Positions 2,763 to 21,563 of a stretch of DNA of 23,077 bases are shown here, in pieces (position 1 is the stretch's first letter; each line of letters opens with the position of its first letter). Source of the DNA: a virus; the IMG/VR virus record IMGVR_UViG_3300006916_000415, positions 1 to 23,077 of that record; one strand, written 5' to 3'. Under the pieces are notes generated by a model, which made no database searches, was not told the origin of the DNA, and saw only the letters and a list, made by a program, of their open reading frames with translations. The position numbers were made by a program, and so were the translations under genes.

Positions 2763-5700
2763 TACTTGATCCAATCTTTTTCTAGTCTATTAACCATTGC
2801 CTTGTAGGTAGTATAAGCGTTATCAAGCATATCCTTTTTGATATACTCAACAGACTTATCAACCTGAGATCCAATCCAGTCCCAGTCTTTATGATCAGAT
2901 GGAATAGATGCAACAATCTGAGGAGCTACTCTGTAATACTTTTCTACCTCTTCAGGTATACCCGCTAAGTAAGTATCTCTAAAGTTTCTCAAGATAGTCA
3001 ACGTTGGCCCATTATCAGCTTCACCCCTACGTTCAACAATAGCTGTAGTCAGGAAGCAACCACCGCTATCTGAAGCCTCGTTAGCATTGTCTGTGTTAGA
3101 ACTATCCCCAGCAGCCGACTCGTTAGCCCGTCTGTTAGCTGTAGCTACGTAGTGATCTGTTAGGGCAGGGTTAGCCGCCAGAGATTCTTTCTCTCTATCT
3201 GACAAATGATTAGTTACGTTAGTACTTGTATTAGGGTTAGATCTATCTAGTCGGGTAGACTTGTCATTACTTGTAGAAGGCTTTGCTGCGGGTTTTGCTG
3301 CGGGCTTTGCAGCAGGCTTTGCTGTGGGCCTTGCCTTAGGTCTAACTGTTGTTGCCCCTGGTTTAAATACGTTTACTGTTTCACCCTTATCAGTAGTCGT
3401 AGTCTCCACGAAAGTACCACCTAAGTCTTCACCTCTGATTGGACCTTTTCTTACAATAGCACCGTCATCTCTAACAGTAGCACCCTTATAGCCTGGGCTT
3501 TCTGCTATAAGGTACTCGCTAACGTTTTCTTTACCTTTATCACTTAATTTTTTGAAGTCAATAATAGCATCCTCAGGCGCATCTATACTTGTAGCAGCTT
3601 CAATAGCGTTATTAAATCTTCTAGTACCTTTAGCTACGTACTCGTCAAGTGTGTCAACGACCCCTGGAGCATTCTTAATAAAGTTATCTATTTCAGTTTG
3701 AATAGCTGTAGCATCCTCGTCTTTACCTAAGAACTCAGCCATCTGTAAGTTTGCTTGCGCTTTAGAAACAGCAGTAAGTTGTCCTGCAGCGTTAGCCATA
3801 CCAAGACCAAGGCCTAAGAAGGGATTAATAGCAGAGGCTACAATACCAGCGCCTTGAGGTATCTTAGTAGCCCCTTCTAGCGCATCCTTAGCCCCTTGAA
3901 GAGGATCTTTTAGATTGACACCGCTGTCTTCATACAGAGCTTGAACACCCTCAGGAGTATTGGGATCAACCTTTGTTCTAATGTCTATGTCATCAGTTTG
4001 ATCTTTGTCATCACTTGTTGCAACACCCTCAGTAGTTACTTCTGGTGCTGCTTCTTCTACACCAAAGTTAAGTTTAGTTCTGTTCTCTGGGGTGTCCTCA
4101 AGGAACTCACCAAAGTCAGCTGGAACAGTACTAATTGGTCTACCATTCAAGATAAGAACTGATATTCTTCTGCCATCCTTGTGAATGTAAAAGGTTGTCT
4201 TCATACCACTTTCACCAGTCGGTGTCGCATCTGGTGTAGCAGTTGTCGTTGTTGAAACAGGAATAGCTGTTGTTGGAGCTTGCTCCATAGTTGTATCTAA
4301 TCCATAAATCTTATTTGGATCTGTAGCAGTCGGTGTGCTTACCTGTGGTGTTTGAGGTGAGGTAGGTGGCGTTGGGGCTGCTGAGATAGGATTTCCAAAC
4401 GGATCTAACTGTTGGCCTTTGTAAGTTGTTCCTACAGAAACACCCTCAGCTGCTTTAAGAGGTTCTTTGTACATCATAGCCTGTTGCTGATACGGATCAG
4501 TAGGGGCCATCTGTTGGCCTACCATACCACCCATAGCCATACCAGTCGGCTCCGCTGACATAACTTCTTGTAGTAAAGCCATTTCATCATCTGTTAATTC
4601 ATCGTCATCTGGTATTTCTTCACCGCCTATACGACCATTGGCTTCCATCTGAGCAAGGGCAGTTTTAGCCTGAGCACGTAAATCTTCGAAGAACTTAACA
4701 CCATAGTATCGAGTAACATCAGCAGGAACTACATACTCATTTTCGGACAACATAGCTGGGATATCATCTCGTACTTCTTTAGGTGTTGATCCTGGTGGTA
4801 CTTCATTCCCTGATACTGGATCAATTTGGCCTACCTCACCGCCAAGAGCATAACCCGCACGGCTAGACTTAAACACTACATCCATTTGATCTTTCATTGC
4901 CATACCGCCTTCGTTAAATTTTTGTGTAGAACCCATACCCTCTGGTGCTGATGCTGTAGCATCTACCTCAATGTAATCATAAAGAGGATGTTCTTTTTTA
5001 CCTACTTTAATAGTTCCTACTTGATCACCAAGTGTGACATCCCCTACTGTAACGGGACGTAAATTAGGCTGCGGTACTTCTTTCTTTACCTCACCTGTAT
5101 TTTTATTCTTTCGATTAACTTTGTTAGTAATCCTATCCATACGAACAGGGCCAACAAACTGTGTATCAAGAGTATAATAATGTTTTTTATCACCTTGTAT
5201 GTTATGAACGGCAACAATAGGGTGATCTAAATCTTGTAGACCTTTATCTGTAACTACATTAAATCGTTCAGGTTGCAAAAGGTTTGTGCGTACTTCTACA
5301 CCAGTCTTACCAGTAGCAGCTTTATAGTTTGCCTTCATATCAGCTACAGTAAGAGATGGTCCATCATAGACATTAGCACGGGCTACAGACTTATTGTTTT
5401 GCCCAAAGGTTGTTTTCTTCTGGGATGGTCTTGCTGATATAAATAGGTTTTCAAAGGTTTCATTGCTTACATCTTTAGGAGCACCCTTACCCATCATAAT
5501 GTAATTACCGAACTCAAGGTCTAACTCGATGTCAGCATCTTGAAGCATACCAACAAATCTATCCCCTTTGTAACCTTTCTTAGAGGGGTCAAAGAACTTT
5601 CCAGGTCCAGGCATAATACTTCCAGCTGTCTCAGCAGACATAGCTCTCCCTAGCCTAGGGTCTAAGTCAGCAGCCAAATCCTCTGAGGGACGCAGGATAG

Positions 5701-20161: not shown

Positions 20162-20338
20162 ATGGAAGATAATATGGTATGTATGTTCTATGTTACTGAA
20201 AGGCTGAAGCTTATAGCTAAGTCTAATAATCCAGAAGGATTGGCTGAGGATTTTCTATCAGAGATGTATCACAACCTAGGTGTAAATGCCTACAACAACA
20301 GAGCGTTTAGAGACGCACCCTATGAAGGAGAAGAGTAA
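20162..20338 (+). CDS. Small early protein (58 aa)
   Basis: A gene below common length limits. GAAAGGA lies 8 bases before ATG 20162. Product: MEDNMVCMFYVTERLKLIAK, NNPEGLAEDFLSEMYHNLG and an acidic end. Its TAA overlaps the next ATG (TAATG), a common junction in this phage, which supports both genes. Confidence 0.65.
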   Translation: MEDNMVCMFYVTERLKLIAKSNNPEGLAEDFLSEMYHNLGVNAYNNRAFRDAPYEGEE

Positions 20339-20652
20339 TGAAGATTGAGACACAGACTTTAGAAGTAAAAGTATGGGATCACCACGATGCAGTAGTGTTT
20401 GTAACACAACAGCGCTTCGAAAAGACAGGTGAGAAGACTGATAGTGGCACTGATATATACAAGCACTGGAAGGAAGTACTGACAGCTATCCCCGTAGACT
20501 TTGGGTACAACCATGAACTAGAGGACGAAGATAAGTACAAGCTAGTCAAGAATGTAGCTGACTCTTTAGTTGCACTATACCAGTACGATCATGACAACTA
20601 CGAGATTGGCGTGTCCTACTACATCAACCACGACCAGTTTGTAAATGGATAA
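20338..20652 (+). CDS. Small early protein, unknown (104 aa)
   Basis: ATG 20338 overlaps the preceding stop. Acidic protein rich in D, E, Y and H: MKIETQTLEVKVWDHHDAVV at the N-terminus, then YNHELEDEDKYKLVKNVADS. No domain recognised. The methyltransferase gene starts five bases after its stop. Confidence 0.7.
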   Translation: MKIETQTLEVKVWDHHDAVVFVTQQRFEKTGEKTDSGTDIYKHWKEVLTAIPVDFGYNHELEDEDKYKLVKNVADSLVALYQYDHDNYEIGVSYYINHDQFVNG

Positions 20653-20657
20653 GATAA

Positions 20658-21563
20658 ATGAGACACGTTGATTTATGCTCAGGCATAGGTGGTTTTGCCC
20701 TTGGTTTCCAATGGGCAGGACTATCCCCGCAGCCACAACTCTTTTGCGACATCGAGCCTTGGTGCCGCAGTATTCTCCAACAACACTGGCCTAATGTACC
20801 AGTAGCTTCAGACGTAAAGGAATTATCGAATGACCCAGACAGAAATGTTCCCGACTGTGACATCCTCACCGCAGGATACCCATGCCAACCGTTCAGTGCA
20901 GCGGGAAAGAGAAAGGGCACAGAAGATGACCGCCACATCTGGCCGTACATCCTCAAAATTGTTGCATCCAAAAGACCCACTTGGTGCGTTTTCGAAAACG
21001 TTTATGGGCACATCTCACTGGGACTCGACGAGGTGCTCACTGACTTGGAACACGAAGGCTACACCACAAGGACGTTTGTTGTTCCAGCTTGCGGCGTCAA
21101 CGCTCCCCACAAAAGAAACAGAGTCTGGATTATTGCCCACACCGACAACCCAAGACAACCCACAGGTGAAGGGGAATCCAGAGCATCCAAAGAGGGGAAC
21201 AACACTGGGCGGGTATGCGAGAATGTTTCCAACACCAGCAGCAGCCGACAGCAAGGGCACCACTGGGGGCGGTCAGAACAGTTCACTCAGGACGCATGTA
21301 AGGATGTTCCCGACACCCAGAGCATCGGAATACAAGGATTGTGGCCCAGTGGGAAGCAAGAGTCACACTCATATGAAGGACAGAAAATATCTATGTGCGA
21401 CAGTGAAGGAAGAAGACAAACCGACTGGGATGTTGAACCCAACGTGGGTAGAGTGGCTAATGGGATACCCAAAAGAGTGGACAGAATTAAAGGACTAGGT
21501 AATGCTATCGTACCACAGATAGCTGAACGCATAGCCTGGACGATCTTGGAGATTTCTAAATGA
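20658..21563 (+). CDS. DNA (cytosine-5) methyltransferase
   Basis: 301-aa enzyme that transfers a methyl group from SAM to cytosine C5, probably protecting phage DNA from host restriction. Motif I DLCSGIGGFALG (5-16), motif IV GYPCQPFSAAGKRKG with catalytic Cys76, motif VI ENV (113-115), motif VIII RNRVWI (153-158), and motifs IX-X VGRVANGIPKRVDRIKGLGN leading to AIVPQ. The region between VIII and IX (about 160-262, target recognition) is short, and contains repeated VSNT/VPDT phrases. A second open frame lies inside this gene (20830-21498). The ATG follows the preceding gene by five bases; its stop overlaps the next start (ATGA). Identification is secure; recognition sequence cannot be told. 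Confidence 0.95.
   Translation: MRHVDLCSGIGGFALGFQWAGLSPQPQLFCDIEPWCRSILQQHWPNVPVASDVKELSNDPDRNVPDCDILTAGYPCQPFSAAGKRKGTEDDRHIWPYILKIVASKRPTWCVFENVYGHISLGLDEVLTDLEHEGYTTRTFVVPACGVNAPHKRNRVWIIAHTDNPRQPTGEGESRASKEGNNTGRVCENVSNTSSSRQQGHHWGRSEQFTQDACKDVPDTQSIGIQGLWPSGKQESHSYEGQKISMCDSEGRRQTDWDVEPNVGRVANGIPKRVDRIKGLGNAIVPQIAERIAWTILEISK
20830..21498 (+). CDS. 222-aa protein encoded in the +1 frame inside the methyltransferase gene
   Basis: Lies wholly within the methyltransferase gene, shifted by one base. It has its own Shine-Dalgarno (AAAGGA, 20816-20821, eight bases before ATG 20830). The translation looks like a real protein: KMTATSGRTSSKLL (32-45), RLLFQLAAS (82-90), three LPTP/FPTP boxes (102-105, 133-136, 160-163) each followed by a short A/D-rich segment, and a C-terminal LNPTWVEWLMGYPKEWTEL before a stop that falls in the conserved motif IX-X of the methyltransferase. 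I recall near-identical phrases (MTATSGRKC, LPTPTAxD, WVEWLMGFP) in many hypothetical proteins beside phage and prophage methyltransferases, which supports dual coding; whether the protein is made is not known to me. A spurious frame shaped by amino-acid constraint on the methyltransferase remains the alternative. Confidence 0.6.
   Translation: MTQTEMFPTVTSSPQDTHANRSVQRERERAQKMTATSGRTSSKLLHPKDPLGAFSKTFMGTSHWDSTRCSLTWNTKATPQGRLLFQLAASTLPTKETESGLLPTPTTQDNPQVKGNPEHPKRGTTLGGYARMFPTPAAADSKGTTGGGQNSSLRTHVRMFPTPRASEYKDCGPVGSKSHTHMKDRKYLCATVKEEDKPTGMLNPTWVEWLMGYPKEWTELKD

Follow-up and report, generated by a model that had tools for sequence, protein, structure and literature searches.

The window analysed here, a stretch of 23,077 bases that makes up a complete virus record, carries capsid, portal/adaptor, terminase and endolysin genes on its minus strand. 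A pair of overlapping genes lies on the plus strand, the outer ORF, here called alpha, enclosing a shorter inner ORF, beta (Table 1). An earlier note on this DNA had described a +1-shifted ORF inside the methyltransferase gene, with a Shine-Dalgarno of its own eight bases ahead of the inner ATG and a stop inside motif IX-X. The nesting is as described, AAGGA is seen at the expected place, and the inner stop, TAG at 21496-21498, falls at the start of alpha motif X. The three LPTP/FPTP boxes, RLLFQLAAS and WVEWLMGYPKEW listed for the inner protein are all seen. A 104-aa ORF immediately 5' of the pair (20338-20652) gave only a sub-threshold match in Pfam (VitK2_biosynth, E 9e-4) and none in PHROG.

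Table 1. Features of the alpha/beta locus, with positions in the window.
Feature	Positions	Strand	Basis or remark
Alpha, outer ORF, C5-cytosine DNA methyltransferase, 301 aa	20658..21563	+	motifs I-VIII and X, without motif IX
Alpha motif I region, DLCSGIGGFALGF	20670..20708	+	M.HhaI alignment
Beta Shine-Dalgarno and ATG	20816..20832	+	AAGGA ends 8 bases 5' of ATG
Beta, inner ORF, 222 aa, +1 frame within alpha	20830..21498	+	probable motif IX/target-recognition subunit
Alpha motif IV, PCQPFS, catalytic cysteine	20880..20897	+	M.HhaI alignment; P75, C76, Q77 invariant
Alpha motif VI, ENV	20994..21002	+	E113, N114, V115 invariant
Beta conserved predicted hairpin, TRCSLTWNTKATPQGRLLFQLAA	21034..21102	+	57-sequence alignment; AlphaFold strands 69-77, 83-91
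Alpha motif VIII, RNRVWI	21114..21131	+	R153, R155, W157, I158 invariant
Beta box 1, LPTP	21133..21144	+	sequence
Alpha residues 171-281	21168..21500	+	predicted disordered; pLDDT below 50; beta is the constrained frame
Beta box 2, FPTP	21226..21237	+	sequence
Beta box 3, FPTP	21307..21318	+	sequence; P161 invariant
Beta motif IX, GMLNPTWVEWLMGYPKEWTEL	21427..21489	+	in-frame homologue ahead of motif X in L204
Alpha motif X, GLGNAIVPQ	21492..21518	+	L280, G281, N282, P286 invariant

By profile and by the presence of motifs I, IV, VI, VIII and X, alpha is a C5-cytosine DNA methyltransferase. It matches phrog_363 (E 5e-73) and PF00145 (E 5e-38), the latter match stopping at profile position 210 of 324, ahead of motif IX, and it aligns with M.HhaI across motifs I-VIII. 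The AlphaFold model of alpha has a confident catalytic core and a C-terminal helix, and its ordered part matches M.HaeIII and M.HhaI; the pLDDT is 31-40 over most of residues 171-281. The region that usually holds target recognition exists in alpha as a predicted disordered stretch, and protein-level constraint on residues 171-281 is small, save in their last part. A chain carrying both motif IX and a target-recognition domain together with the catalytic motifs was found neither in the window's alpha nor in the 259 relatives whose alpha is without motif IX.

Beta falls into a known family of phage proteins, PHROG 1008, labelled 'DNA methyltransferase' (E 2.2e-34; residues 3-220 of 222 against profile positions 31-281 of 329), which agrees with the statement in the earlier note that proteins resembling the inner one occur in phages. 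The number of boxes differs among homologues, mostly between 2 and 5. Near the C-terminus, G200, L202, N203, P204, E208-G212, P214 and T218 of the putative motif IX are invariant in a 57-sequence alignment. The AlphaFold model of beta alone was poor (pLDDT 57) and too weak for a structure search, and a ureidoglycolate lyase assignment (NCBIfam, E 0.08) was dismissed. Given that sequence searches of Pfam and the PDB with beta returned no significant match, the motif IX assignment was drawn from relatives in which the enzyme occupies a single frame.

The C-terminus of beta, LNPTWVEWLMGYPKEWT, resembles motif IX of C5-methyltransferases, and in L204, a Rickettsiales MAG, and its viral relatives L290-L292 this segment stands in the alpha frame, directly ahead of motif X; in L204, L290 and L292 the PF00145 match is full-length. 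Against M.HhaI LHPRECARVMGYPDSYK...GNSVV the L204 segment is in register ahead of motif X, being weak as a separate domain (E 16-32), and profile comparison links it to the C-terminus of beta with 97.5% probability. L204 retains the boxes, but not motif IX, in its +1 frame. Among 281 unique loci, motif IX was found only in the +1 frame in 259, only in alpha in 8 and never in both, with no motif IX recognized by pattern in either frame of the other 14. Thus, wherever it is found, there is one motif IX per enzyme, in either of the two frames. In the window it sits in beta and is absent from alpha.

Motif IX in alpha together with a retained beta-like +1 ORF was seen in Gordonia phage Trax, Streptomyces phage Darolandstone and Rhodococcus phage ReT1v-2. 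In these actinobacteriophage methyltransferases (L085, L086, L087 and L370, with ShiLan gp70 similar) alpha has an EWMMG motif IX-like segment or its tail, and the +1 frame, with its TSGR and TP boxes, has also stayed open, the module being arranged here in a second way. In a Clostridia MAG (L182:2688-3682) motif IX ends the alpha frame and motif X lies in another frame, which may mean that the frames were exchanged, that the copy is broken or that the sequence contains an error.

Beta also occurs as a gene of its own, an independent sign that it is a protein. In a Flavobacteriales MAG (L187), where alpha occupies 2031-2888, a beta with boxes and LNPVWVEWLMGYPANWT is encoded 3' of alpha and without overlap, at 2923-3660, and it matches the window's beta by BLASTP (E 7e-22) and by hhalign (99.6%). 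A truncated +1 ORF akin to the N-terminal part of beta persists inside this alpha (L187:2191-2667; phrog_1008 E 9e-13). In L168 (2908-3138), and likewise in L030 and L162, an extra 76-aa ORF 3' of the nested pair, with one LWPTP box and motif IX (LNPDWVEWLMGYPIGWTDL), resembles a partly duplicated beta C-terminus that stands alone.

Taken together with the pattern of constraint described below, we consider it highly likely that alpha and beta are one split C5-cytosine DNA methyltransferase, with beta contributing motif IX and, probably, target recognition. Nested phage genes often have unrelated roles, and the lack of a confident fold or a Pfam match for beta would also fit a separate small phage protein, acting for example in anti-restriction or methyltransferase regulation, that merely overlaps the gene. 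We regard such an unrelated protein as unlikely because beta terminates in the very methyltransferase motif that alpha is missing and that never occurs in both frames. Moreover, no beta-like protein was found apart from a C5-methyltransferase, with 286 of the 287 non-excepted matches lying in the +1 frame of one, and even the free beta of L187 lies directly 3' of its alpha.

That both frames of the overlap are coding can be read from the relatives. In a first sample of 80 viral loci, picked by their match to beta, each of the 80 matches fell in the frame shifted by +1 within a methyltransferase gene, and both frames were open through the match in 78. Because this sample had been selected via beta, a second was gathered via alpha, consisting of 66 distinct loci. 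A long +1 ORF was present in 66 of 66, with a median of 230 aa. Shuffling the synonymous codons of alpha reduced the median to 92 aa, the +2 frame having 46 aa, and the observed length was matched by fewer than 1% of the shuffles in 58 of the 66 loci. The earlier note had named frequent +1 stops and normal synonymous variability as findings that would speak against its proposal, and neither was found. Stops in the +1 frame are rare, the overlap being free of them in 220 of 254 loci (34 have one within the tested stretch), as against 0 of 254 for the +2 frame. The overlap is also precisely where synonymous variability drops strongly: at positions where 41 non-redundant alphas, averaging 62% identity, share an amino acid, codon identity is 0.454 ahead of beta, 0.728 in the overlap and 0.382 past it, codon usage leading one to expect about 0.355, and the rise is bounded by the edges of beta itself. 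An AAGGAG-like Shine-Dalgarno with ATG or GTG recurs ahead of beta in the homologues, and the Lys codon within it is AAG in 133 loci and AAA in 13, compared with 247:239 elsewhere in the 5' part. By these computational tests the locus is dual coding, with a start of its own for beta, and the codon conservation and the rarity of +1 stops support the claim of two proteins from one DNA stretch.

Which of the two proteins is held where can be told from difference rates at the alpha codon positions in 66 independent pairs of relatives, alpha position 1 being beta position 3. Ahead of the overlap, the rates at alpha positions 1/2/3 are 0.076/0.034/0.249. Within it they are 0.076/0.029/0.116 where motifs IV-VIII are encoded, 0.275/0.138/0.126 in the variable part and, in the stretch ahead of motif X, 0.120/0.055/0.048; past it they are 0.067/0.048/0.241. 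Wobble therefore follows alpha outside the overlap and beta between motifs VIII and X, both frames being held in the motif part. Expressed as the ratio of position 1 to position 3, the values are 2.19 in the variable part (95% interval 1.83-2.81) and 2.50 ahead of motif X, against 0.30 and 0.28 outside the overlap. Given that the wobble between motifs VIII and X falls on the third codon position of beta, beta is the constrained protein there, and amino-acid differences in the variable part are 0.324 for alpha and 0.185 for beta. Between these motifs alpha is close to filler. The switch from alpha to beta as the constrained frame occurs at about codon 160.

A switch at this point is also what a programmed +1 frameshift past motif VIII could leave behind, yielding one chain that runs from the N-terminus of alpha into the C-terminus of beta, with motifs I-VIII, the boxes and motif IX, the start of beta going unused. 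We find this very improbable because the synonymous constraint on the +1 frame begins at the beta start, about 100 codons 5' of the switch, and because beta is free in L187; in addition, the Shine-Dalgarno and start of beta are conserved, and the fused chain would be without motif X. That the inner ORF is an untranslated by-product of the amino-acid and codon composition of alpha, which by itself does yield +1 ORFs of fair length (101 aa on average when the window's alpha is shuffled), is already refuted by the constraint pattern, barring alignment artefacts throughout, as the +1 ORFs of homologues exceed their shuffles, codon conservation is confined to the overlap, the wobble is of the beta type and L187 has a separate beta gene.

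In the split enzyme that we favour, alpha would provide the large catalytic domain with cofactor binding, catalysis and motifs I-VIII and X. Beta, started at its own Shine-Dalgarno and ATG, would provide motif IX together with the boxed, variable region that lies between motifs VIII and IX, this region probably being the target-recognition half, and across this boxed stretch alpha would serve more or less as a stop-free linker carrying the ribosome on to motif X. The small domain of M.HhaI and M.HaeIII, which touches the target bases, is made up of the variable region and motif IX (PMC3404938). We infer that the two chains physically assemble in trans, as in M.EcoHK31I, that both parts are needed and that beta acts as the recognition domain; the assembled pair would methylate DNA, presumably shielding phage DNA from host restriction. 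The earlier note had suggested that the inner protein helps or regulates the enzyme, for example in target choice. This pointed in the right direction but was too weak, beta having the look of a subunit that the enzyme needs and not of an accessory regulator, since it holds the motif IX that is absent from alpha and is better conserved over the usual recognition region.

The closest known systems are M.EcoHK31I and M.EaeI, C5-methyltransferases of two polypeptides for YGGCCR. In M.EcoHK31I, according to Lee, Kam and Shaw in 1995, beta is reportedly nested within alpha in another frame, both being needed for methylation; in the present pair, too, the gene for the small subunit lies in a different frame inside that for the large one. 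Motif layout is shared as well, the large polypeptide of M.EcoHK31I having motifs I-VIII and X together with the predicted target-recognition domain and the small one motif IX (PMC3404938). Judged by motif layout and nesting, the pair most likely belongs to the M.EcoHK31I kind. Unlike M.EcoHK31I, it is an orphan and resides in phages, and whereas target recognition was predicted there in the large subunit, the constraint pattern here points to beta, and a recognition region encoded by beta would be the more novel part. The genes of M.AquI, another split enzyme, are not known to be nested. As in the present pair, one polypeptide of M.AquI has the catalytic motifs and the other motif IX; however, its split lies inside the variable region and its small subunit carries motif X in addition to motif IX (PMC3404938), while here motif X is in alpha.

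The same nested C5-methyltransferase frame is found in PHROG 1008, in Paenibacillus phages Diva and Lily, where it is called an 'internal gene', and in Escherichia phage K1G, where it is an 'Mte8-like protein', their annotation giving either no function or just 'DNA methyltransferase'. In the open-licence literature 'Mte8' occurred only as a K1-phage annotation, and no paper explaining the nested phage gene was found there, although an earlier survey could exist. The out-of-frame HNH ORF of ShiLan similarly overlaps a phage methylase gene whose frame stays open and is predicted to be disordered. We rejected the idea that it is the same thing, as it is a mobile and patchy HNH insertion, in contrast to beta, which has no HNH match and is conserved with alpha.

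The layout is conserved in hundreds of viral sequences, usually without annotation. Relatives occur in Paenibacillus, Lacticaseibacillus, Escherichia, Klebsiella, Bacteroides and actinobacterial phages, in E. coli prophages, and in 38 genome contigs spanning many bacterial groups; outside Diva, Lily and K1G, the nested gene is unannotated in N15, HB10c2 and the E. coli prophages. We lean towards the view that these form a widespread class of phage methyltransferases with the recognition region and motif IX in an overlapping frame, the annotated protein being half the enzyme. If so, the constrained frame would pass from alpha to beta and back to alpha within one gene, and changes in the boxes of a usually unannotated protein would set and diversify target specificity. 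Many phage and prophage 'DNA cytosine methyltransferases' may then be annotated as single proteins though their target reader is an overlooked overlapping ORF, and predicting specificity from the annotated protein or cloning alpha alone would fail. Given that the module comes in a nested form, as a free-standing gene and in a form whose motif IX is encoded by the outer frame, it provides a natural test case for overlapping genes. Among the E. coli relatives no EcoHK31I-like restriction-modification locus was found, 4 of 4 lying in prophage-type surroundings and one being broken, a prophage copy (L374:2056-3225) that is annotated as two broken cytosine methyltransferase pieces.
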